Of a DNA stretch of 64,000 nucleotides, positions 3,181 to 38,662 are shown one piece after another. The translations under genes were made by a program, and so were the position numbers. The DNA is from Candidatus Poribacteria bacterium (GTDB taxonomy: Bacteria; Poribacteria; WGA-4E; WGA-3G), in NCBI GenBank assembly GCA_028821605.1, contig JAPPFM010000012.1, forward strand, positions 1 to 64,000, in the 5' to 3' direction. The notes under the pieces were generated by a model. The model worked only from the letters and a program-made list of their open reading frames with translations, made no database searches and was not told where the DNA came from. The first letter of the stretch is position 1. Every line of letters starts with the position of its first letter.

Positions 3181-6100
3181 TTACTCTTGTGATTTCAATT
3201 CGCCCCACTTCGTCGTGAGTTTACCAGCAGCGCCGATGTGACCTCTCAGGCGGGTGCCAAGCGTAAGTGTTTGGCGTTGTCCGTCTAAGGAAACATCTTC
3301 GATCTGGTAGTAGTAGACGACGTTGGGTTTCGCACTTGTGTCGGTGTAGGTATAGGACTGCTTCTCAGAAGTCGTGCCTGCACCTTGAATCATTGTTGGG
3401 TTGATGACCTTGAACTCGCCATCCTTTGCTTCACTCCGCTTGATGAAGAATCCAGCGTTGTTCAACTCGGACTGGGTTTCCCATTTGATCACAACCTGAC
3501 CGGTAAGTTGATCACGTTTCGGATAGAACATGGAGAGTTCGACGGGTAGCGGACCACCAGCATCATAGCCTGGAGTTCCTGCGTCTTCGTCGCTGCCATA
3601 CCATGTGATCTGTCCACTGGCGAGATCCGTCATGGATGCTTCTCTCCAGCCATTCGCGGCGGTGCCCATGGTCGCCATGTTAGCGGTATCCATCTCCATA
3701 CGGATCAAGGAACTCCGCATACCTTCAGCCATTGGCAATGCCCATGCTGCCGCTCCGTTTGCAAGGTTACCAGCCATGTCGCCGTAGACGGTTACACCAG
3801 TAGCCTGGGGTGGCATAAGGACAATTTTGAATGCCGTCTCACTGAGGAGCAGATACCGTCCGGTTTGTGCCAATTGATCTGCACTTGAGGCATCTATGAT
3901 AGCGACATTGTCTAAGTTATCGGAGCCACGACCGGAGAAAGCAATAACCAAGAGAGATTGCCCTTTCCCCATGTTCCCTGGATGTGCACTGACACCTAAC
4001 GTGTGACCGCTGAGGTCAATCATAAGCGAGCTGCCAAGCACATCTGCATCAGCAGGATCGTTCATGATGTTGAGCATCCAGCCATCAAGACTGACTTCTC
4101 CAGCGGCCTGGTTCGTGAGTTCAATCCACTGTGGGAATCTGCCGTTGCCACTGTCAAACATGATTTCGGTAATATCGATATCATCCTTCATCGCAACCGC
4201 TGTCGGTGTTGGCGGTGTTGGCGGTGGCGGTGGCGGCGGTGTTGGGGCTACTGGATCCGGAGCATACATGTTCGCTGCACCCGGTGTGCCAATGCGTCGT
4301 CCGCTAAGGTTAGAACTTGGACGGACCGATGCTTTCCAACTTGCCATCGCAGTGCCATCCGTTCCACCCATCACACGGGACATAGAGATGAGGTCCTGAA
4401 CTGCTATGACTGCCGGAACCTCGGCTTGACCACCGGACTCGTCTGGTGTACTAGATTTCGGCCCACTTATACCACCTTGACCCGGCACTTGCCAGAAGCC
4501 AGTAGCGGGGTTGTTGCCAACGGTATCAATGACAGTGAAGCCAGAGGGTACACTTCCGACCGTGATGACCCATTCTTTGTTATCAATGCCGATTGCTGCG
4601 GTGCCCGGATTATGCAGTTCGATATACTGGCTGTCTTTTGTACCATCATCGAGTCCCCACATAATTTCACTGATCATCAAAGCACCCGCGGCATAAGCAG
4701 TTGAGTCGGCTGCGGTATAACCCGTAGCGTCATCACCCGTGGGTCCCTTCGAGTCGCCGTGTCCGCTGCCAGTGGCTGCGGGGATGTCCGCATAAGCCAA
4801 ATTCAGCGTACCGCCATTACGGAAGAAGTTATCCAAATCGTCCGCAGGGAACGGCAATCCCAATCCGGTAACATTATAGAGTTTCTGGGCTGCGGTCAAC
4901 TTTTCCTTGGTCTTTGACTTCGGATCAGCGATACCGGCTTTCCCTCTATCCGCCACAAGCACGAGAAATCCGCCTGCTGGAATGTAAAGTTTATTACCGA
5001 GAACGATCTCGTTGCCAATCGCATCAAAGACCTTCTGACGTGCATCATAAGCCGCCTTGGCACCAGCAACTTTGGCATCCTCAATGGTATGTACCATAAC
5101 CGACAAGACTTCGCGTCCGTCCGTTACCCTTGCATCCCTCAAGCCTTCTTCAGTAGCACCGAGTCCAGTTGCTGTCCGCTGTGCTGTCAACAGAGGGATA
5201 TACATTTTGGATTGGGGAAGGAGTTGATCTTCAAACTGCTTAACCGATACCATTAGTTCAGCATCTACACCTGCGTTCGGTGTAATGGTAACGAGGTACT
5301 GGTAGAACATATCATCGTTGCCCGTAGGCTTGGGAACATCAGTAGCGGTAGCATCTCCGTCTGTTGCATAACCCCCACCAATACCACGACGAAAATCCGC
5401 GTCAATAGCAAGAGCAGTTCCATCAGCGTTCATAGGAAGTTCTATAGGTGAACCCATAACAGGCGCTCCTACTGTTGCTCCGCCTCCCTCAACCATAACA
5501 TGGTCTTTCGTGAATTCTTTCGGCTTCTCAGTGAGGATAATCCGAACGTTAAAGGGAACACCTACTGGAGCATCAAAACCAGAACGATCAAGTACCCGCG
5601 TAATAGAAACGACACCCGGCGTACCTGCTGCCACGTTAGTAGCCTCGCCATAGGCAGCGTACTCAGGATCGCCATCATCAGCACCCACTAATTGAATCGT
5701 TAGCCGGTTTGAGGCAAAATTCTTAGCGTGAGGTCTTTCATCTCCTGTAAGTGCAGGATTGGCATTTGTGAGAATCTCACGCTTCACGCTTATGAACAAC
5801 TTATCAATCATGGCCCAGTTCGTTGCAGACTCTTGCGATATTGTCAGGATGGCATTCTTACCATTGTTAGGGTTACCCACAGTAAGAGTTGGTCCAGCGG
5901 TATCTAAATTTAGATTAGGTACCGTAAGAGGTAAACCATCTTTATCAAAAGCTACAATGACGAAATCAAGTATATCAAGTGCGTTCGCATCTGCCGCTCC
6001 TGCAGCATCTGTGGCCTTTGCTGCAACACTTATGATCTGGTCAGAGCTAATCTGAACAATTATCTCGTCATCAGCTACGGCAGGACGCATCACTTGAACA

Positions 6101-6300
6101 CCGTCTGCAGAACTTAAATCATGCGCAGCTGAGACTGAAAGCGTCAGCTTCGGATGGGCAGGATCAATGTCAAACTTAGATCCATCCGCCTTCGTAACTT
6201 GTGCTTTATGCGCGTCAACTGCTATTGGTGCAAACACAAGCCCAATAGCAATCAACATAACTAAACTTGCTAAGGAAAATGTCCATTTAAGAGACGTCAT
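3181..6300 (-). CDS. Large secreted protein with two lamin-tail domains and T9SS-like C-terminal region
   Basis: The 1039-residue protein begins with a signal peptide (positive start, LASLVMLIAIGLVFAPIA, cleavage near AVDA). Two lamin-tail domains are recognisable by ISEIMW...YIELHNPG (from about residue 538) and ITEIMFD...WIELTNQ (from about 708), separated by a proline-rich linker near 692. From about 917 comes LPVELSMF...VVIKWET...NNAGFFIKRS...YYYQIEDV, the Fn3-like module that in Bacteroidetes often precedes type IX sorting domains. The extreme C terminus reads GKLTTKWGELK, closely like the LamG protein at 48127. The first 500 residues are unassigned. Six stacked promoters (6602-7126) and a strong terminator suggest an abundant surface or exported protein. 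The substrate or ligand is unknown. Confidence 0.85.
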   Translation of the reverse strand: MTSLKWTFSLASLVMLIAIGLVFAPIAVDAHKAQVTKADGSKFDIDPAHPKLTLSVSAAHDLSSADGVQVMRPAVADDEIIVQISSDQIISVAAKATDAAGAADANALDILDFVIVAFDKDGLPLTVPNLNLDTAGPTLTVGNPNNGKNAILTISQESATNWAMIDKLFISVKREILTNANPALTGDERPHAKNFASNRLTIQLVGADDGDPEYAAYGEATNVAAGTPGVVSITRVLDRSGFDAPVGVPFNVRIILTEKPKEFTKDHVMVEGGGATVGAPVMGSPIELPMNADGTALAIDADFRRGIGGGYATDGDATATDVPKPTGNDDMFYQYLVTITPNAGVDAELMVSVKQFEDQLLPQSKMYIPLLTAQRTATGLGATEEGLRDARVTDGREVLSVMVHTIEDAKVAGAKAAYDARQKVFDAIGNEIVLGNKLYIPAGGFLVLVADRGKAGIADPKSKTKEKLTAAQKLYNVTGLGLPFPADDLDNFFRNGGTLNLAYADIPAATGSGHGDSKGPTGDDATGYTAADSTAYAAGALMISEIMWGLDDGTKDSQYIELHNPGTAAIGIDNKEWVITVGSVPSGFTVIDTVGNNPATGFWQVPGQGGISGPKSSTPDESGGQAEVPAVIAVQDLISMSRVMGGTDGTAMASWKASVRPSSNLSGRRIGTPGAANMYAPDPVAPTPPPPPPPTPPTPTAVAMKDDIDITEIMFDSGNGRFPQWIELTNQAAGEVSLDGWMLNIMNDPADADVLGSSLMIDLSGHTLGVSAHPGNMGKGQSLLVIAFSGRGSDNLDNVAIIDASSADQLAQTGRYLLLSETAFKIVLMPPQATGVTVYGDMAGNLANGAAAWALPMAEGMRSSLIRMEMDTANMATMGTAANGWREASMTDLASGQITWYGSDEDAGTPGYDAGGPLPVELSMFYPKRDQLTGQVVIKWETQSELNNAGFFIKRSEAKDGEFKVINPTMIQGAGTTSEKQSYTYTDTSAKPNVVYYYQIEDVSLDGQRQTLTLGTRLRGHIGAAGKLTTKWGELKSQE

Positions 6301-22228: not shown

Positions 22229-25200
22229 ATGAACCCAAGGATTTTGGGCATTATCGGTGGCCTCGCCTTAGTAGTTGCGCTCCTTTCACCTTTTATGATG
22301 GGTAGTTCCAAAAAGGTGGAGCAACTCTTCCAATCCGCTGAAGATTTATATGGACAAGCGGATTATGAGGGCGCAATTGACAAGTATACCGAGGCACTCG
22401 AAGAATCAACAAAACGCGGTGTGAAAACCGAAGTTATTGACAAGGATTTCGAGACCCTCGCCAACTATAAAATCGCAGTTAGTTATTCGCGACTCGCTGA
22501 ACAATCGGGCGATGTCAATCATTACGACACTGCGATTGAGTACATCGAAAAGGTTGCCCCGACAGCAACTATTCCGAAACACCAAGAGGGATTGACCTAT
22601 CTCTGGGGACATATCCTCTACCGGACTGAGCAGTTTGAATTAGCTGAGCCGAAATTTACGCAGCTCATTGAGAACTTCCCGAACAGCCTTTTCGTTGAAA
22701 ATGCTTGGTATGCTATCGGGCAGCTCAACTATAAACTGCAGAACTATGAAGATTCCCGACAGGCATTTAAAGCTGTTCTTGATGGTTTCCCAAACTCCGA
22801 TTTTAAGGATGATGCGCAGCACTTGATCGCGCAGTCCTTCCTTAATGAATCCAACTATGAGCAGGCGTATCAGGAATTTGACAAGATCGCGACAGAGGAA
22901 TTCAAAAACTATCCCGATCTGCAAGCCGAAGCGATGTACAAAGCCGCTTATAGTTTGAACCAGCTCGGTAGGGACGATGAAGCAATTGGTCGTTATACCA
23001 ACTTCATTACGCAGTTCCCGGAAAGTCAATACGTCACAGCGGCATACTTCGACCAAGGCGCGATTTACGCTCGGCAGAAGGACTATGACAACGCACGTGT
23101 TAACTACGAGTTGGCACTCCAAAACACCGCTGACCGCACACTACAAGCAGAAATTCAGTCTGCTATCGGGAGTACTTACTTCGACCAAGGCGACTATGAA
23201 AACGCCATTGTCTCCTATAACACGCTCCTTGAAGAATACCCAGAGAGCGACTTTATCGCTTTAGCGAAAGTGGGCATTGCTGATAGTCACTTCAAATTAG
23301 AGAATTGGAGTGAGGCGACTGTCGCTTATGAACGTGTTATTAATGAACACGAAGAAGAGACGGATTACATTCCTTATTGCTCCTATCAGATCGGTGAAGC
23401 GTACTACAAACTCGGTAGCAACCAGACAAAGGCTGGAGAAACCGAAGCAGGGATGGCAACGCTCGAACTTGCACTACAGTGGTATCAAAAAACTATTGAT
23501 AACTACCCGCAGGATCCTGTTGCACCCCATGCACTCTACGGAGCGATTTGGGCGCTCAACGATCTCGGACGGAAGGAAGAGTTGGAGGCAGTCGCACGCG
23601 AGTTTATCGAGAAGAATAAAAACGATAATGAGTTCGACATTCTCGCCGCAGAGGTGCAGCTCCGCTTTGCTGATATCAAACGCAGTGAATTCAAGCAGTA
23701 CGTTGAAGCCGCTGAAGAATACGCAAAGTTGTGGGAGTACCGTCCGCTACCGAAATTCCATCTCGTCAAGTTGATGGGTAAATTCTTTGAAGGCCGTTCC
23801 TACTACGAAGCTGCCAAACCTGAAGGCTATCAGGAAGGCGATGCAGGCACCGACTTCAACCAAGCTTACCTTGAGAAGTCTGTTTCCGCGTATCAGGAAG
23901 CTATCGATATGTTTAGTGATGCATCTTTCCTCCCCGGTGTTGCTGAGGAACGTTACGATGACTTCCCCGAACGTGTTGCTCAAGTGGAAGCGTGTACCAT
24001 GAACGAAGCACTCTCCCATGAAATGCTTGGTGACTGGGGTCAAGCTCGTGACCGTTATGCTTCTATCCCTGAGACGAGTGAATACTACGAACGCGCACTC
24101 CTTCTCGTCGCCAATAGCCATGTCAAGGAAGGCGATAAAGAAGGCGCGATTAACTATTACAATTCTATTTTAGACAAACTCGCCGATCCGAATAACCGTT
24201 CGTTGGCAGAACTCAAACTCGCTGACATGCTCCGTGCTGAAGAACGGTTTGAAGAGGCGGCTGTCCAGTATCAAGCTGTAGTTGATGGCAATCCAACAGG
24301 TGAATATGCAGATGATGCACTTTACCTCGTCGGGCTTTGTTATTACCAAGTCGCTTCTGAGAATCCGGCACTCTTGGAGTCCGCCGAGACTGCGTTCAAA
24401 CGCGTGATTACGGACTATGCCGATAGCCCTAACGCTATTGAAGCGTATTACGGTTTGGCTCTCGCCTATCGCGATGCCGCTCAAAAGCAGAATGATACGG
24501 AAAAATGGCCCCTCATTCTTCAACTCGTTGACGAAGCGCACGAAAAATACGCCGCCAGTGACAATGAGTCTATTCTCAAGGCACTCGGCCAGATCGAATT
24601 GATTAAGGCTACCGCCATTGAAAACACGAGTGAAGATGTCGATGTTGATGCGCTCGTGGCTTCACTCAAGCGGATTGTTGATAACACAGGTGCGCAGGTA
24701 GAAGCACGTAGTCGGTCACAGTTGAAGATTGGTCATACCTACTATAGTGCCAAACGCTATGACGAAGCACTTGCGGAGTATCTCCTCTTCGTGCAAACTT
24801 TCCCGAATAACGAACTCGCACCGAATGCGCAGTATCAAGCAGCAGTCTGTCACTATCAAATCGCACAAGCTGCAACAGATGCGGGCAGCAAGCAGTTGAG
24901 TCTCCAGAACGCTGTTGCTGCGGCGGAAAAAGTGGAAACACTAACCGACGATGCGAACAACCGAATCAGTGCTAACTACACTGCTGGTTTAGCATGGCTC
25001 GGGTTAGACGACAACAAAGGTGCAGCAGACGCATTCAAGAAAGTTACGGCGTTAGAGGGACAGACCGAAGATGAGGCACGGGAGACGCTTATCTTCCAAG
25101 CGCACTCACGTCTCGCTGAACTCAACGCGACTCTCGGTGACTACGCCGGAGCGGTGCAAGAGTATCAGTATATTATTGAAAACACCGAGGACGCGGACAT

Positions 25201-26929
25201 GAAGGGACGTTCCTACTTCGCGATGGCTTTTGCTCAAGAGGAACAACTGAAAGTCTATCAGGACGCGTTGATGAGTTACCAGAATGCCATTGAATTGGTA
25301 GAGGACACGCTCGTCAAAGCACAATCCTACTATCGGATGGGCTTGATTTATCAAGACCAGCTGCAACAACCGAGTAAGGCGTTGGAAGTCTTCCAAACCC
25401 TAATCGGAGAACACAGTGGTTCAGAAAACGCAAGTGTTGCGTCGATGGTAGCTGATGCAGGCATTCGTCGTTCAACCCTTTATGTTGAATTGGGACGCTT
25501 GGATGAAGCGATCGCCGAAGCGGTTGAAGCACTCGATCGGACCAAAGGGAGCGAAAAAGCGTCTGTGGCAGAAAAAGCTGCTGCGCAATATAACCTCGGT
25601 TTCCTCTATTCCGACAAGGCACGTTCCCTCTTCTCCACAGAGGCGGGTACGGATCTGAAGCCTTACATCGATGCGAGTCGGAACGCTGCAGGGACCTTCT
25701 TTGAAGTCGTCTCAATCGCGGCACCGGTAGAAAAAGCGGACAAACAGACGGTTATTCCGTATGTTCAGAATTCGCTGTTCCAAGCCGGTCAGATTTACTA
25801 CTCTGTCGGGATTGGCGTGAAACTTGACCAAGACTTAAGGAGTGCCCTAACACCGCTCACGACCTTCGTGAGTTATGTTGATAAAGGACTCTTCCCGAAA
25901 TCGGATGCGCTTCGTAAAAATACGGAGACCGCGCTGAATTACCTCGCTGCTGCCAACTTTGAACTCGGTCGTATGCAGGTAGGTATGGACGGTGAGATGT
26001 CTGATAAAGCGGTAAGTTATTTCATTGCCGCTGGAGATGTCTTCCGAGATATGGTAAGTCGCTATCCGAGTGCGAACGATGCCGCCTTCTGGCAATATCA
26101 CGTTGGGGAATCCTACTACGCCGCACAACAATTTGAGAAAGCAATTGAAGAGTACGAAAAGGTCCGTTCTGTGAACAAAACTCACAAGAGCGCGGCTGAA
26201 TCTTTGTATGCGATCTCTACTTGTGCGCAGCTTCTCAGCGAAGCCGCCGAAAAATCAGGCGATGCAGAAGCGAGACAACGCTGGTATGATCGGCTCTTTG
26301 AGGCGAACGAGGTCCTCGCCGCTGAGTATCCGAACAGTCAGTACACCGCCGATGCTCTCATCAATATCGGCAATAAGTACTATAACGCTGGCTCCGAACA
26401 AGGTCTGGAGCAAGCGGAACGGATTCGTCTCTATCAAATGGCGATAGAGAACTATCAGAAGGCGATCAATACACCTGGCATCGGTAACGAGTCAAAGTCG
26501 ACAGCAATGGGCTATCTCAATGACACCGCCAATGCACTTGCCTTCTACGAGTATGAGCGCGCAACTGATATGCTAAATGCAGCTAAACTCGCGAGAGGTG
26601 ATGAGCAGAAAACAGCAATCGAAGCCACTATCAGTGAGTACCAGAAGATCCTTGAAGCGTATCCGACAACCAAATATGCGGATCTCGGTCTTGTGCAGAT
26701 CGGTGAAGCATATATGGTGTTAGCCGATAGCGATGATGCACATTTCAACGATGCGTTGGATTACTTCAACCAGTTGTGGGCAAAATATGAGACAACGCCG
26801 CCTGTAGACACGAAAGTCAACCAGGCACTGACGTATGCGATTAGTCAGATCCAGACGATTCAAAGCTATATGCGAGCGAATAATCTGGAAATTCGTGGTT
26901 CTACTGTGGGTGGTGGCGGTGGTGAGTAA
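22229..26929 (+). CDS. Giant TPR-repeat protein with N-terminal membrane anchor
   Basis: The 1566-residue protein has an N-terminal hydrophobic anchor (GIIGGLALVVALLSPFMMG) followed by TPR-like repeats over nearly its full length, for example AEDLYGQADYEGAIDKYTEAL, ALYLVGLCYYQVA and SLYAISTCAQLL. Repeats resemble those of BamD/YbgF-type periplasmic proteins that assemble envelope complexes (NFPNS, FPESQY and YPNSQYTADAL phrases). Charge is strongly acidic; the C terminus is a Gly-rich tail. It lies after the sigma/anti-sigma pair, but a repeat intervenes, so co-transcription is uncertain. Probably a periplasmic scaffold. Confidence 0.85.
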   Translation: MNPRILGIIGGLALVVALLSPFMMGSSKKVEQLFQSAEDLYGQADYEGAIDKYTEALEESTKRGVKTEVIDKDFETLANYKIAVSYSRLAEQSGDVNHYDTAIEYIEKVAPTATIPKHQEGLTYLWGHILYRTEQFELAEPKFTQLIENFPNSLFVENAWYAIGQLNYKLQNYEDSRQAFKAVLDGFPNSDFKDDAQHLIAQSFLNESNYEQAYQEFDKIATEEFKNYPDLQAEAMYKAAYSLNQLGRDDEAIGRYTNFITQFPESQYVTAAYFDQGAIYARQKDYDNARVNYELALQNTADRTLQAEIQSAIGSTYFDQGDYENAIVSYNTLLEEYPESDFIALAKVGIADSHFKLENWSEATVAYERVINEHEEETDYIPYCSYQIGEAYYKLGSNQTKAGETEAGMATLELALQWYQKTIDNYPQDPVAPHALYGAIWALNDLGRKEELEAVAREFIEKNKNDNEFDILAAEVQLRFADIKRSEFKQYVEAAEEYAKLWEYRPLPKFHLVKLMGKFFEGRSYYEAAKPEGYQEGDAGTDFNQAYLEKSVSAYQEAIDMFSDASFLPGVAEERYDDFPERVAQVEACTMNEALSHEMLGDWGQARDRYASIPETSEYYERALLLVANSHVKEGDKEGAINYYNSILDKLADPNNRSLAELKLADMLRAEERFEEAAVQYQAVVDGNPTGEYADDALYLVGLCYYQVASENPALLESAETAFKRVITDYADSPNAIEAYYGLALAYRDAAQKQNDTEKWPLILQLVDEAHEKYAASDNESILKALGQIELIKATAIENTSEDVDVDALVASLKRIVDNTGAQVEARSRSQLKIGHTYYSAKRYDEALAEYLLFVQTFPNNELAPNAQYQAAVCHYQIAQAATDAGSKQLSLQNAVAAAEKVETLTDDANNRISANYTAGLAWLGLDDNKGAADAFKKVTALEGQTEDEARETLIFQAHSRLAELNATLGDYAGAVQEYQYIIENTEDADMKGRSYFAMAFAQEEQLKVYQDALMSYQNAIELVEDTLVKAQSYYRMGLIYQDQLQQPSKALEVFQTLIGEHSGSENASVASMVADAGIRRSTLYVELGRLDEAIAEAVEALDRTKGSEKASVAEKAAAQYNLGFLYSDKARSLFSTEAGTDLKPYIDASRNAAGTFFEVVSIAAPVEKADKQTVIPYVQNSLFQAGQIYYSVGIGVKLDQDLRSALTPLTTFVSYVDKGLFPKSDALRKNTETALNYLAAANFELGRMQVGMDGEMSDKAVSYFIAAGDVFRDMVSRYPSANDAAFWQYHVGESYYAAQQFEKAIEEYEKVRSVNKTHKSAAESLYAISTCAQLLSEAAEKSGDAEARQRWYDRLFEANEVLAAEYPNSQYTADALINIGNKYYNAGSEQGLEQAERIRLYQMAIENYQKAINTPGIGNESKSTAMGYLNDTANALAFYEYERATDMLNAAKLARGDEQKTAIEATISEYQKILEAYPTTKYADLGLVQIGEAYMVLADSDDAHFNDALDYFNQLWAKYETTPPVDTKVNQALTYAISQIQTIQSYMRANNLEIRGSTVGGGGGE

Positions 26930-30283: not shown

Positions 30284-31930
30284 TCAGTTCGTCCCGATGA
30301 TTATATCAATTCTGCGATTCTGTTCTGCTCTGTCCGCGCCCTCTTTGACAACAGGCTGGGTCTCACCCAAACCGACAGCAGTAAGACGCTTTGGATCCAT
30401 CCGTCCTGTATCAACAAGGAACTTCTTCACTGAGTCTGCACGCACTATACTTATGCTTTGATTGACACTCGCCTCTCCCATAGAACTCGTGTGTGCCTCA
30501 ATACGGACCGAGTAACTCTTGAATTTAGCCATCCGAAGGACTCTTGCGAGTTCATTAAACGTTGTGAAAAATTCTTCCCGGAGTTGCACGCTGCCGTAGG
30601 AAAATACGTTCCCATTGATACGGACGAGTACACTATTTCTCTGTTCTTTGACGGTGGCTCTGGGAATTTGTCTTGATGCTTTTAACAAATCCGATTTCAC
30701 AGATGTTGCGAGGTGTGTATTTGTAATGGCACGCTCAAGGTAATCGTTACCCTCCGTTGATTTTTCAATTGCGTTCTGATATTCTTTACTTGCCAACGCA
30801 GCGTTTGCTGTTACGTAAGCCGAATTGGCGAGTTCGTAGAGTTGTCCCTCTAATTGCGGGACCTGCGTCTGTGCTTGCGCGGAGAGTTTTTGTTTCAAGG
30901 CATTGACCGCTTGTCGCGCCTCTGTTGCTTGTCTATCTAATTCCTCCTGGGCACGCTCTGTGAATTCTGCGACCTCCGCGATTGTGACGGCTTGGTCAGC
31001 TGCTTGTTGTGCCTGCTGCGCAGATTGCTGAGACTGTTCATAGCGATTGGTATCCAATTCCTGTTTCGCACGCTGCAGTTGTGAAGTCGCCTCTTGAAGC
31101 TGCTTTGGGGCATGCTGACTGGCGTTGAAGTATTGGGCACGCTGGATAATCACTTCTGCTTTCGCGATTGAGATTTGCGCGTTTGTCTTTGCCTCTGCTT
31201 CTGCTTCGCGGTTCTGTACCGCCAATTGGTAGAGATTGTTGGCGAGTGTCTGTGCGTCAGTGATAGTGCTCTCTGCATCATGAAACGGTTTCTGCTCAAT
31301 CAGGTTCATGATCGAGGCAATTGCTGCCTGAACACGTTCATAGTCAGCGGTCTCTTTAATGGCAGGATAGATAACTGCAGCAATATTGACGAGCGACTCT
31401 ATGTTTACGAGTGGTACACGCAGTTCAGCTTGACGGAGTTTTGTTTTTAAATCAGCGATTTCAGATGAGAGTTGGTCTGTCTGTTGTTGTCCTTCATCAC
31501 GTGATCTCAAAGTACGAGCGAGCTGCTCTTCGGTGATCGCTTGACGGGTGCGCTCAATCTCGAGTTCATGCTCGAGTGACTTTATGGTTTGTTGATATAT
31601 CTGTTCTCGAATGGCAACAACTTTTTGTTGGGCATGGTGTTGTCGCGCTTTTGCACTGGCAATCTGTGCAACTAATTCTGCTTGATACGCGAACTCCGCA
31701 CTCTGAGGAATGTCTCCATTTTCCTGTGAATCCCGTGCGAAGTTCAGGAGTTTCACTGCACGTCCGAATTCTTCCGGTGCCACAGATTCAGCTTTCAATT
31801 CTGATGCATTACTAATTGCCTGCTGTGCGTCTTGGAATTGCGTTGCCAGCATAACCTCATCAATTTCCGGTTTAGCACATCCGAAAATAACGAGGCAGGT
31901 CCCTAAGAATAGCCATCCATAAAACTTCAT
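30284..31930 (-). CDS. OmpA-domain lipoprotein with DUF4398-like and coiled-coil regions
   Basis: The 548-residue protein has a lipoprotein-like signal (FLGTCLVIFGC), a DUF4398-like N-terminal region (AQQAISNASELKAESVAPEEFGRA), ~300 residues of Gln/Ala-rich coiled coil (AQQAQQAADQAV), and a C-terminal OmpA peptidoglycan-binding domain (VRIEAHTSSMGEASVNQSISIVRADSVKKFL...RLTAVGLGETQP...NRRIDIII). It probably tethers outer membrane to cell wall. The smaller DUF4398 lipoprotein gene precedes it by 31 bases. Confidence 0.88.
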   Translation of the reverse strand: MKFYGWLFLGTCLVIFGCAKPEIDEVMLATQFQDAQQAISNASELKAESVAPEEFGRAVKLLNFARDSQENGDIPQSAEFAYQAELVAQIASAKARQHHAQQKVVAIREQIYQQTIKSLEHELEIERTRQAITEEQLARTLRSRDEGQQQTDQLSSEIADLKTKLRQAELRVPLVNIESLVNIAAVIYPAIKETADYERVQAAIASIMNLIEQKPFHDAESTITDAQTLANNLYQLAVQNREAEAEAKTNAQISIAKAEVIIQRAQYFNASQHAPKQLQEATSQLQRAKQELDTNRYEQSQQSAQQAQQAADQAVTIAEVAEFTERAQEELDRQATEARQAVNALKQKLSAQAQTQVPQLEGQLYELANSAYVTANAALASKEYQNAIEKSTEGNDYLERAITNTHLATSVKSDLLKASRQIPRATVKEQRNSVLVRINGNVFSYGSVQLREEFFTTFNELARVLRMAKFKSYSVRIEAHTSSMGEASVNQSISIVRADSVKKFLVDTGRMDPKRLTAVGLGETQPVVKEGADRAEQNRRIDIIIGTN

Positions 31931-31961
31931 CAGTGATCCTCAACCCTTATCGTTTGGTTCT

Positions 31962-32402
31962 TTAGTAGTCCCGCAACGCATCAAGTTCAGCCTTTATAAC
32001 CTCAAGTCTCTGAAGAACCTCGTCGATGTTCTGTTCACTAAGTGTAAGCTGTGCTTGTGCTTCTTGAACACTCGCTTCCTCGCGAATAGCAATAGCAGTT
32101 TCAGTTGCGATCCGGGCATGAAGGTATGCACGAAGTGCCAATCGATATGCCCGCTCTGCATCACCAGCCTTCATTGCGTTTTCAGCGGTAATCAACATCT
32201 CTTGAGCCGTACGTAGAGATGTTTCGGCGGTTTCTTGTGCTCCCATCGCGTTTGCGGAGGTGAGAGCCACCTGGGCATTCTCCATTGTTTCCACAGCGAG
32301 CTGTGACAACTGCCCGCCACACCCTATCAATGCTGTTAGCGTGGTGAGACAGATTATCCATTTTATTGTTAATTTGTGCTGTCTATTTTTCAAGCGTGTC
32401 AT
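31962..32402 (-). CDS. DUF4398-type lipoprotein
   Basis: The 146-residue protein has a lipobox ALIGC, then an all-helical body with A-rich repeats (MENAQVALTSANAMGAQETAETSLRTAQ, AENAMKAGDAERAYRLALRAYLHARIA). Its N-terminal half resembles the same part of the OmpA-domain protein encoded next, so the two probably act together in the periplasm. Function unknown. Confidence 0.75.
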   Translation of the reverse strand: MTRLKNRQHKLTIKWIICLTTLTALIGCGGQLSQLAVETMENAQVALTSANAMGAQETAETSLRTAQEMLITAENAMKAGDAERAYRLALRAYLHARIATETAIAIREEASVQEAQAQLTLSEQNIDEVLQRLEVIKAELDALRDY

Positions 32403-35181: not shown

Positions 35182-36750
35182 CTACAGTCGCGGTGTCAGT
35201 GTTACGACCGGTGTTATCAGTTCTCCCATCGAAATACCACCGTGCTGGAACCCTCCTTGAAACTGCCGTTTATACTTATAAAAATCGTTTGGGTAGACGA
35301 AATAATAATCGTCTTTCGCAAGAATGTAGTCCTTGCTAGCATTTTCCGCTGGTAATCGGTATTCCTTCGGGTTTCGCAGATAGACCGCTTCGCCCTCTTC
35401 GCACCCTAAATTAGAACCGATTTTGAACCGGAGACTGGTAGTGGTCTCGCGATTACCATAAGCGCGGGTCGCACGGTTACAAAAGACAGAACCGTGATCA
35501 CTCGTGAGAACTACAGTTGCGTTTTGTGCTGCAATAATACGTAAAATATCAAAAAGTACCGAATGAGAAAACCACGAACGCGCCAAAGCCCGAAAAGCGG
35601 ATTCATCCGGTGCGAGCTGCTGTAGAACATCTGATTGTGAGCGCTGATGTGTCAAAATATCAATAAAGTTGATAACCAACGCTGAGAGGCTCACGCGTGT
35701 ATTTGCCGAAACCCGCTTTTTGTAAGTGTTTCCACCCCGCGTGTCGAAAATTTTGAAGTACTGAAGCCCGGGTTTCAACTTAATGCCTCTACGTTTGAGA
35801 TGTGCTTCGAGAAGCTGACGTTCATAGCGATTCGTGCTCGTGTCTCCATCAGATTCTTCCTGCCAATACTGTGGATAGTGTTCCGCAATCTCTATTGGAA
35901 ACAAACCACTGAAGAGGGCGTTCCGTGAGTACATTGTCGCACTCGGCAGGATTGAAAAACTATACTGGCGATCAATAGAAAAATAGGGGTACAAAAGTGG
36001 TTCTACTGCCATCCAATGGTCCAGGCGGAAGCAGTCAACCACAATAAAATAGACAGATTTTCCGGCTTGAAGTTGGGGAATAACATACTGGTCCAGGATA
36101 TTCACCGACAGTGGCGGTGCGCCTGGACTCCCTTCGACCCAGTCAGGATAACGTGAGGCAACAAAATCTGAGAATTCGGCATTGCACTCTTTCTTCTGGG
36201 CAAGATGTGTTTCCTCCAACCCACCTTCGGCTAATTTTTCAGACACCAAATCCCATTGCAATAGTTTCACATAGATGCTAACCCAATCTTGCCAGCTCGG
36301 TGCCGAATCTTTCATCGCGCGGATAGCGTTGAAATCTGTCGTATATCGACTCGGGATTTGATCTATGATTATCTGAGGTTGATCCAGGACGCGTTTTAGT
36401 GTTGAGACGATCTGGGCAACACCGATTGGTTTTACCAAGAAATCGTTTACCTGTTTGCCAAGAGCCTTCTCAATAAACTGTTCGTCGCTGGATTGGGTGA
36501 CGAGAATGACTGGGATTTGTGTGTTGATGGTACGGATTGCGTCGAGCGTCGCCATTCCATCCTTACCGGGCATAACCTGGTCGAGTAGAACAGCACTATA
36601 CTGTGTTTCACCTTGCATTAAGAGGGCAATGCCATCTTCGCCATTTGTCACAGGCGTGACGGCGTAGCCCCTGTCGCGCAGCACAAGAATATGCGGTTGC
36701 AACGCCTCTATTTCATCATCAATCCATAAGATTTGGTGTGTTTGTGACAT
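35182..36750 (-). CDS. PorX-like response regulator with PglZ (alkaline-phosphatase-type) domain
   Basis: The ~522-residue protein starts MSQTHQILWIDDEIE (a longer frame begins at 36816 but has no family match there). Receiver domain: phosphoacceptor Asp in AVLLDQVMPGKDG (about residue 57), Thr in ILVTQSSDE, Lys in DFLVKPIG. The rest is a PglZ-type domain: YFIVVDCFRLDHW, SATMYSRNALFSGLFP, VVLTSDHGSVF and QHGGISMGELITPVV. REC plus PglZ is the architecture of PorX, which with PorY controls type IX secretion genes in Porphyromonas. The adjacent histidine kinase gene has the same direction. Name by architecture; the true targets are not known. Confidence 0.85.
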   Translation of the reverse strand: MSQTHQILWIDDEIEALQPHILVLRDRGYAVTPVTNGEDGIALLMQGETQYSAVLLDQVMPGKDGMATLDAIRTINTQIPVILVTQSSDEQFIEKALGKQVNDFLVKPIGVAQIVSTLKRVLDQPQIIIDQIPSRYTTDFNAIRAMKDSAPSWQDWVSIYVKLLQWDLVSEKLAEGGLEETHLAQKKECNAEFSDFVASRYPDWVEGSPGAPPLSVNILDQYVIPQLQAGKSVYFIVVDCFRLDHWMAVEPLLYPYFSIDRQYSFSILPSATMYSRNALFSGLFPIEIAEHYPQYWQEESDGDTSTNRYERQLLEAHLKRRGIKLKPGLQYFKIFDTRGGNTYKKRVSANTRVSLSALVINFIDILTHQRSQSDVLQQLAPDESAFRALARSWFSHSVLFDILRIIAAQNATVVLTSDHGSVFCNRATRAYGNRETTTSLRFKIGSNLGCEEGEAVYLRNPKEYRLPAENASKDYILAKDDYYFVYPNDFYKYKRQFQGGFQHGGISMGELITPVVTLTPRL

Positions 36751-36878
36751 ACGTAAGTTTTTGACATACTCACCCAGCGAAAGCAAGGGTGGTTCTTTTG
36801 CTCCTTTTAGGAACATTCCTCGCGTTTAAAAAGCACGGGGGTTTGTGTCGAATCCTGATAACGCCCGTTAATTTGGGT

Positions 36879-38405
36879 CTACGCAACTGGCAGTCGAATT
36901 TCAAAAGTTGTTCCCTCAGGACTCGTTTTAACGACACGAATGTTTCCGTGATGATACTCGCGGATGATACGTTGTACGACTGTCAATCCGAGTCCCCACC
37001 CATGTGCCTTCGTAGACATCCCGGGTTCAAAGATCTTTCGCTGATGCTCGCGGGCTATCCCGCTTCCATTATCGGCATACCGGATAATAATATCGTTGTG
37101 TCGTTTGTCATGCGTTGGTTCAATCTGAATCCATCCTTCCGGCTTGTCCATGGCATCCAACGAATTGCGAATTAAGTTTTCAAATACCCAATGCAGTAAT
37201 TGCGCGTTTGCCAAAATGGGCGGTGTCTCATGTAACATTAGTTGAATTTCAACGCGGCGACTAATATGTGGCAGCCGTTTATCAAAATACAATCTGACTT
37301 CTTCAAATACTTCTTCTATATTCACTTCGGTTAGAGGGGGTTGCGTGCCAATCATACCGAAGCGTGCTGTTGTTTTCTGTAAACGCTCCAGATCGTTTTG
37401 CATACTCTCGGACAGTTCAGCGAGTGTTATATCGTCTGTCTCTTTACTCCGTGCCTGCAAGAGTTCTGTCCATGCCAGCAGCGACGAAATCGGTGTTCCG
37501 AGTTGATGCGCAGTCTCTTTAGCTAAGCCCCCCCAAATTGCCGAGTGTTCATAAGACTTTATCCGTTGATAGACGAGAAAACAGACGACCCCGAATATTA
37601 ATAAAACTACCGGTACGACGAAAAGTATTACTAATCCATAGTATGGCTTACTCTCATAGTAAAAGTAACCGTTGTATGTTTCAGGTGTTGTTACAATCAT
37701 CGAGAATGCAGGCGCGTTCTGAATGAAGATTTTCGCCCGCTCGCGCTCCTGCGGAGTTGCTTCATCCGCAGTGACGACATCGCCCCATATCTGCCACTTC
37801 TGTGGCGTACCCGCGGTATCGGTTATTACAAATGGCAGGCGTGTCATCTCGCTAGGGTCAGCATCGCCGTAATAAATGTACCCTTTTAGCTGCCTATCTT
37901 TGAAGAGCATGGGTATCTTGCGTGGCGGATTCTTTTTTTTCATGCGCGCCAATGTCGATTGCAACAATGTCCTTTCATCTTCTGTTAACGAAATTCTCCT
38001 ATCTCCGTTGACATTTGTATCAAAACTCTCGATTTTTGCGTCAAGTGCTGGGTCAACACCGCGTGTGATTACAGGATTTCCTTCTGCATCTGTAATAATA
38101 AATGAGAACGCGCGCGCCCTGTTTTCGGCAAGTGATTCCTGTTTTACTATCTCAGTTAGTTTCTGTTGTAGGTCCCGGTCTTCAACAGTCGGAAGTACCA
38201 CTGCCAGATTGGCGAAAATGTCTATCTGTGCTTCTATATCCGCGTTCAGCTGCGAGATTTGCTGGTTGTAATAAGCGAACCCAAATACAAGCATACCCAG
38301 TCCAACGATGAAGTAAACGAATATTAAACGGGTAGTCGTATATCTTGGGATAATTCGACGATTCAGCCGCAATTCGTATTCCTCCATACAAATTAGACGC
38401 GACAT
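36879..38405 (-). CDS. PorY-like membrane sensor histidine kinase
   Basis: The ~508-residue protein has two membrane segments (LIFVYFIVGLGMLVFGFAYY and GLVILFVVPVVLLIFGVVCFLVY) enclosing a ~200-residue sensor region, no HAMP match, then the phosphoacceptor motif in AKETAHQLGTPISSLLAWTELL, N box NLIRNSLDAM, G1 ADNGSGI and G2 GWGLGLTVVQRI. The AHQLGTPISSL form of the H box is typical of Bacteroidetes-type kinases such as PorY. The start at 38405 is favoured by a promoter just upstream; longer frames reach 38519. It stands directly upstream of the PorX-like regulator. Confidence 0.82.
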   Translation of the reverse strand: MSRLICMEEYELRLNRRIIPRYTTTRLIFVYFIVGLGMLVFGFAYYNQQISQLNADIEAQIDIFANLAVVLPTVEDRDLQQKLTEIVKQESLAENRARAFSFIITDAEGNPVITRGVDPALDAKIESFDTNVNGDRRISLTEDERTLLQSTLARMKKKNPPRKIPMLFKDRQLKGYIYYGDADPSEMTRLPFVITDTAGTPQKWQIWGDVVTADEATPQERERAKIFIQNAPAFSMIVTTPETYNGYFYYESKPYYGLVILFVVPVVLLIFGVVCFLVYQRIKSYEHSAIWGGLAKETAHQLGTPISSLLAWTELLQARSKETDDITLAELSESMQNDLERLQKTTARFGMIGTQPPLTEVNIEEVFEEVRLYFDKRLPHISRRVEIQLMLHETPPILANAQLLHWVFENLIRNSLDAMDKPEGWIQIEPTHDKRHNDIIIRYADNGSGIAREHQRKIFEPGMSTKAHGWGLGLTVVQRIIREYHHGNIRVVKTSPEGTTFEIRLPVA

Positions 38406-38418
38406 ATCAACATACTTA

Positions 38419-38447
38419 ATGGTACCACTTTTAAAATGAAATTGCAA
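38419..38447 (-). promoter_or_regulatory. Probable promoter of the PorY-like/PorX-like operon
   Basis: Minus-strand -35 TTGCAA (38442-38447), 17-bp spacer, -10 TACCAT (38419-38424), close before the start at 38405. Confidence 0.45.
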
Positions 38448-38662
38448 GTCTATTTTGATTGTGGCATCTCGTTCTAAAAAATTTATTGGATTCTTTGGAT
38501 TCTGAATGCTCTTTTTCAATGATCAGAGCGATTAAAACCGAGTCTACCGTAGCGAACCCCTATTTTCTATACCTACAATGTTTGTTGTAATCCGTCTCTC
38601 CTTTCTTGAAAAAATCTGAAGTTCCCAGAAGACTTAGAACCTCCAGTGAAATAACATATCAT

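Follow-up and report, generated by a model that had tools for sequence, protein, structure and literature searches.

A porY-porX gene pair in Poribacteria, probably orthologous to the regulators of type IX secretion in Porphyromonas

Introduction

PorX and PorY are known from the protein-secretion machine of gum-disease bacteria, and Poribacteria are sponge-associated organisms far from Bacteroidota. The locus described here raises the question of whether a PorX-like regulator and a PorY-like kinase lying side by side in a poribacterial genome are the same two-component system, and what such a pair would control. The window that we analysed is a stretch of 64,000 nucleotides from Candidatus Poribacteria bacterium (contig JAPPFM010000012.1, positions 1 to 64,000), and the features discussed below are listed in Table 1.

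NCBI taxonomy lists Poribacteria among the candidate phyla, outside the FCB group. Most papers treat the type IX secretion system (T9SS) and PorXY as specific to Bacteroidetes; one allows the T9SS in several FCB phyla and not in others (PMC11285876), and its component SprA has been described as FCB-specific (PMC12611786). Kamke 2014 (PMC3909097) reported Por sorting domains on many proteins of Poribacteria, and no Por machinery. Our literature search, which covered papers outside subscription, returned nothing on adjacent porYX genes or on a poribacterial PorXY, and at most a passing mention of a link to PorX.

Table 1. Coordinates of the features discussed, in window positions unless a locus (L) or contig (C) handle is given
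Feature	Position	Strand	Remark
porY, membrane sensor histidine kinase	36879..38387	-	likely 502 aa, start placed from orthologues; open frame 36879-38519
porY-porX gap	36817..36878	-	62 bp to first ATG, 128 bp to likely start
porX, REC-PglZ response regulator	35182..36816	-	544-aa frame; likely true start 36750
Two consecutive DUF4398 proteins	30284-32402	-	one fused to an OmpA domain
TPR protein	22229-26929	+	1566 aa
Lamin Tail Domain protein	3181-6300	-	1039 aa
PorX-B paralogue	C55:205931-207469 (L163:8932-10662)		further loci L202-L210
PorU-like C25 protein beside PorV-family gene	L167:8719-16345 (C2, ~68.7-76.3 kb)		2132 aa
SprA/Sov-like protein	L162:8403-15137 (C2)		2245 aa
TnpB (IS200/IS605 family RNA-guided nuclease)	L162:15356-16672		adjoins SprA-like gene

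Results

The regulator is PorX

The REC-PglZ regulator had been predicted to be PorX, and the curated NCBIfam equivalog model NF052313 (T9SS_RR_PorX) settles this identity at the level of sequence, with a score of 583.9 bits (cut-off 300) and residues 28-543 aligned to model positions 2-513 of 513. A phmmer search matched the solved PorX proteins of F. johnsoniae and P. gingivalis (E ~1e-116), and the domains found are Response_reg (70 bits) and PglZ (59 bits). A BREX PglZ protein was considered as an alternative identity and rejected (NF033449, only 97 of 250 bits). The likely porX start is an internal ATG (MSQTHQILWIDDE...), chosen because the alignment with orthologues begins at about residue 20.

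The phospho-acceptor aspartate of window PorX is Asp79 of the 544-aa frame (codon 36582-36580). The phospho-acceptor and the bimetal PglZ residues have been listed for F. johnsoniae PorX (PMC11320123), and the window protein is identical at all of these sites (D54, D237, T271, D360, H364, D414, H415 and H499 in F. johnsoniae numbering). The phospho-Asp and the seven zinc/catalytic residues are intact in 14/14 Poribacteria PorX-A copies, and window PorX is a predicted zinc-dependent PglZ phosphodiesterase. PorX was matched in all 85 genomes of the phylum, 81 of them above the NF052313 cut-off.

The kinase is a probable PorY orthologue

The kinase carries a HATPase_c domain (76 bits) and a weak HisKA match. 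The start first proposed for it, 38447, did not hold up: it adds a leader without conservation, and the likely start (MEEYELRLNRR...) is the one in Table 1. Two transmembrane segments, TM1 at residues ~20-40 and TM2 at ~249-275, enclose an extracytoplasmic loop of ~210 aa, and the phosphoacceptor, His294 (codon 37508-37506), lies ~20 residues past TM2. The H box of this two-TM histidine kinase, which lies upstream of porX, is IWGGLAKETAHQLGTPISSLLAW (also given as LAKETAHQLGTPISSLLAW). In its H box, its two TM segments and the distance from TM2 to the His, the protein agrees with PorY-type kinases; the topology and His193 of P. gingivalis PorY have been described (PMC5005315).

The NCBIfam matches of the kinase include no PorY model (the best named matches are to AtoS/ZraS, below threshold), and we therefore tested its orthology directly. 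When a Prevotellaceae (Bacteroidota) PorY-type kinase was used as query, the window kinase was the best match in its genome (170.8 bits; next 63.7), and in the other searched genomes having a PorX-adjacent kinase, that kinase was the best match. PorY-type kinases form one clade (support 96) against 18 other kinases, some of them from the window's own genome. P. gingivalis PorY is represented by the kinase of a Porphyromonas-like genome (G217) whose PorX is 79% identical to P. gingivalis PorX; this genome has exactly one PorY-type kinase at the threshold used, and its His is near the reported His193. With this Porphyromonas-like kinase standing in for P. gingivalis PorY, the reciprocal search, the tree and the topology support the predicted assignment of the window kinase as a PorY orthologue.

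PorX and PorY are also inherited together. Their tree distances are correlated (r = 0.81 over 57 genomes; 0/2000 shuffles as high), with r = 0.87 where the genes are apart, and 35 of 38 kinase-bearing genomes, mostly from other phyla, have PorX above the cut-off.

The loop between the TM segments is bimodal in length among PorY-type kinases (loci L065-L144), at either 106-147 or 207-255 aa, and is always near 210 aa in Poribacteria. The long loop is also seen in some Bacteroidota, Latescibacterota, a Gemmatimonadota MAG and two Marinimicrobia. The window loop contains two ITD..G / YY modules and the Porphyromonas loop one. The structure model of the kinase (mean pLDDT 75) places two alpha-beta modules in the loop, and we read the tandem modules as probably PAS/CACHE-like. 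A Pfam search of PorY identified no sensor domain, and a fold search with the kinase model matched the kinase core, not the sensor.

The pair is a conserved unit across several phyla

A genome search yielded 30 PorX loci from nine families of Poribacteria, and every one of them has the kinase followed by PorX on the same strand, as do 7/7 named Poribacteria loci (37 in all), so that the arrangement is not due to chance. The named loci closest to the pair in the window are all from Candidatus Poribacteria. Together with the co-inheritance described above, this order bears out the prediction of an adjacent, co-directional cognate pair. The open frames often overlap or abut at other loci, and the gap in the window has no terminator-like stem on the minus strand. 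The flanking genes rng, rplU, OmpA and DUF4398 are common to the pair within the Poribacteria family and were not found beside it in other phyla or at the most distant Poribacteria locus checked; the conserved unit is therefore the pair. The two consecutive DUF4398 proteins lie downstream of porX-rng-rplU and are conserved in the family.

Adjacent porY and porX were also found in Zixibacteria (4 loci), Latescibacterota (4 loci, one with a 0.7-kb gap), Gemmatimonadota (2 loci), a Fibrobacteres MAG and four further MAGs, and in a MAG labelled Ignavibacterium whose place in the tree is with Zixibacteria. PorX was never directly beside the kinase in Bacteroidota, Ignavibacteria, Marinimicrobia, KSB1, Calditrichia and Kapaibacterium, with two cases 3-4 kb off; the two genes were separate in the Bacteroidota genomes checked, as the original prediction had called usual for Bacteroidetes. 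Its view of a pair outside the known phylum stands in that PorXY is present in Poribacteria, but the locus is not a local oddity, and adjacency is the norm once one leaves the side of the tree that holds Bacteroidota.

In the phylogenies, the window kinase groups with PorY-type kinases of Bacteroidota, which agrees with the prediction, and both PorX and PorY of Poribacteria fall outside the Bacteroidota clades. Lineages with the genes apart make up one side of a single branch both in the PorX tree (support 99) and in the PorY tree (support 95). On the PorX tree a single change accounts for adjacency, and the separate 'orphan' genes of Porphyromonas are therefore probably a derived state. Both trees are unrooted, and the midpoint root falls beside Poribacteria; we infer from this root that adjacency is ancestral, which gives the likely direction of change. 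The tree thus suggests that the porYX operon came first. The pairing of PorX with PorY, biochemically shown for 'orphan' genes, is here visible from gene order.

T9SS parts occur elsewhere in the genome

The reading of the pair as PorXY had been tied to the occurrence of T9SS core genes in the genome, and sorting domains, PorV-family, PorU-like and SprA-like proteins were all found there. The genome-wide search for Por components that had been proposed turned up PorX, PorV-family proteins and a PorU-like protein, but not GldL and GldM, the homologues of PorL (the reported docking partner of PorX) and PorM. No T9SS genes were seen beside porX or porY in the window.

The type A C-terminal sorting domain (CTD; TIGR04183) has ~79 matches in the genome, nearly all above the cut-off and none in the window's contig. 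The PorV/PorQ family has 17 matches, 6 of them clearly above the cut-off; the scores are 227 bits against 90 on the family model and 85 against 250 on the strict PorV equivalog. The PorU-like protein, which includes a C25 peptidase domain, falls just short of the cut-off of the PorU sortase model (401 bits of 420) and contains the His and Cys motifs YAGHGG and LSCYNG and its own FlgD-like C-terminus. Its gene directly adjoins a PorV-family gene, and porU and porV are neighbours in P. gingivalis too (PGN_0022, PGN_0023). Three stretches of the SprA-like protein match SprA/Sov (E 2e-44, 151 bits; TIGR04189 cut-off 200), the protein is above the gathering score of PF14349, and SprA matches were found in 21/21 Poribacteria genomes of the order. 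A profile of this protein gave no SprA match against the PDB; its AlphaFold model has a pLDDT of 34, and Foldseek matches from so poor a model are meaningless. The gene adjoining it encodes TnpB.

Two window proteins were tried as T9SS parts and rejected. The best candidate for the large secreted protein that was originally thought to have a T9SS-like C-terminal module matches only Lamin Tail Domain, with no NCBIfam match at E <= 1 and no profile match to a T9SS CTD. It ends in an LPVELSMF...NNAGFFIKRSE module and the tail KLTTKWGELK; among the ORFs fetched, a single other one (L208) has a similar tail. The window TPR protein scores 63 of 250 bits as PorW/SprE, through TPR-repeat similarity only; it has multiple YbgF/BamD-like stretches.

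GldL and GldM gave no match in the window's genome, while most Bacteroidota controls were positive. In sets of 38 and 37 genomes both were above the cut-off only in Bacteroidota, despite the presence of PorX/PorY in many other phyla, and one weak sub-threshold GldL match was seen in another genome (G022). The GldL model gave no match for the Porphyromonas-like genome either; it can thus overlook divergent copies, and the absence is unproven.

Many Poribacteria carry a second PorX with a decayed receiver

The paralogue PorX-B, found in many Poribacteria, forms a clade (support 100) inside the phylum. The zinc/catalytic residues are all intact in the 10 copies, of which 2 retain the phospho-Asp, 7 have Asn in its place and 1 has Ser; the acidic pocket and the conserved Lys of the receiver are eroded in most copies. 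The neighbourhood glcD-glcE-porXB-dsbD-TPR is kept in most of the nine loci examined, with some loci lacking a clear glcD and one lacking dsbD and the TPR gene.

Discussion

Sequence comparison establishes the identities of the two genes, their conserved active sites and order, their co-inheritance and their co-occurrence with T9SS parts. We consider it likely, with a probability of about 0.8, that the poribacterial porY-porX operon and the PorY/PorX system controlling the T9SS in Porphyromonas are orthologous.

The signal, the phosphotransfer in this organism and the output are proposed by analogy, as follows. PorY would be an inner-membrane kinase whose extracytoplasmic loop senses an envelope signal; it would autophosphorylate on His294 and pass the phosphate to Asp79 of PorX. 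Phosphotransfer from PorY to PorX, and interaction of the two, have been reported in P. gingivalis (PMC4800418, PMC5005315). Phosphorylation would alter the dimeric state of PorX and its zinc-dependent PglZ phosphodiesterase domain, and PorX would in turn control a T9SS-like export route made up of the SprA-like, PorV-family and PorU-like proteins and the ~79 CTD proteins. The output may run through expression, with a partner sigma factor, or through a nucleotide signal. Window PorX has no recognisable DNA-binding domain, and neither has that of P. gingivalis, for which SigP or PorL are the reported partners (PMC5005315); direct promoter binding by PorX has also been reported (PMC8050853). Since GldL and GldM were not found and the PorL route has no identified partner, output through expression or a nucleotide signal is likelier than docking on PorL, and we somewhat favour it over a motor that escaped detection. 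If the motor is truly absent, PorX docking on PorL is untenable for these lineages.

These patterns suggest that the PorYX switch is older than the motor that it is thought to steer. In a more tentative extension, PorYX would be an ancient operon predating both Bacteroidota and the GldLM/PorLM motor and serving, in Poribacteria and several other phyla, a motor-less T9SS-like export by way of CTD, PorU, PorV and SprA-like proteins, with PorX acting through its PglZ phosphodiesterase domain or through expression. PorX-B, blind to phosphorylation, may as part of this same tentative picture supply PorX-type enzyme activity constitutively.

The strongest competing view, which we regard as rather unlikely, is that the PorYX pair is genuine and has an output other than the T9SS in Poribacteria, such as a PglZ nucleotide second messenger, with the T9SS a later role in Bacteroidota. 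It is favoured by the restriction of above-threshold GldL/GldM, including the reported docking partner of PorX, to Bacteroidota (the weak G022 match aside), by the retention of all PglZ metal residues, and by PorX-B, whose intact PglZ and decayed receiver sit among glcD, glcE, dsbD and a TPR gene, unrelated to known T9SS genes. The CTDs, PorU-like sortase, PorV family and SprA-like proteins of the same genome speak against it, as does the report that every species with T9SS components has PorX (PMC10951265). That the kinase is instead a generic sensor kinase beside PorX, its H box alike by convergence, could be argued from the missing NCBIfam PorY model and the sub-threshold AtoS/ZraS matches, but is very improbable and is rejected on the reciprocal best hits, the PorY clade, the co-inheritance, the adjacency in the 37 Poribacteria loci and four other named lineages, and the finding of no closer PorY homologue in the same genome. 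Least probable of all is that Poribacteria received both genes horizontally from Bacteroidota and re-paired them, a default suspicion since much of the literature restricts PorXY and the T9SS to Bacteroidetes; it is ruled out by trees that place both poribacterial proteins outside Bacteroidota clades with support 100 and 99 in a phylum-by-phylum pattern, with the split lineages all on one side of one branch and PorX throughout the phylum.

An orthologous PorYX system, together with the SprA-like, PorU-like and PorV-family genes, thus supplies concrete candidates for the export-route question raised by Kamke 2014.

Among known systems, BREX PglZ proteins resemble window PorX in their PglZ alkaline-phosphatase-like domain, but only the latter has a receiver domain. 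F. johnsoniae PorX (Fjoh_2906; PDB 8p6f, 8ted) is divergent in sequence (391 bits), yet aligns over its full length and has all zinc/catalytic residues in common with window PorX. F. johnsoniae has the canonical GldLM motor. P. gingivalis PorX/PorY (PGN_1019/PGN_2001) has the same REC-PglZ active-site residues and a two-TM kinase with its His ~20 residues past TM2, and the P. gingivalis genome resembles that of Poribacteria in CTD cargo, PorV family and PorU(-like) sortase. The P. gingivalis genes are separate, whereas the poribacterial pair is adjacent and in one direction, and the periplasmic loop of P. gingivalis PorY is ~115 aa as compared to ~210 aa in window PorY. Poribacteria further differ from P. 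gingivalis in that GldL/GldM were not found, SprA and PorV are divergent, and there is an extra PorX with a decayed receiver. Compared with the T9SS as a whole, several poribacterial parts score below curated cut-offs and GldL/GldM are missing from the set found, but CTDs, the PorV/PorQ family, a PorU-like C25 protein beside PorV and a SprA-like protein of 2245 aa are all present in the window's genome.
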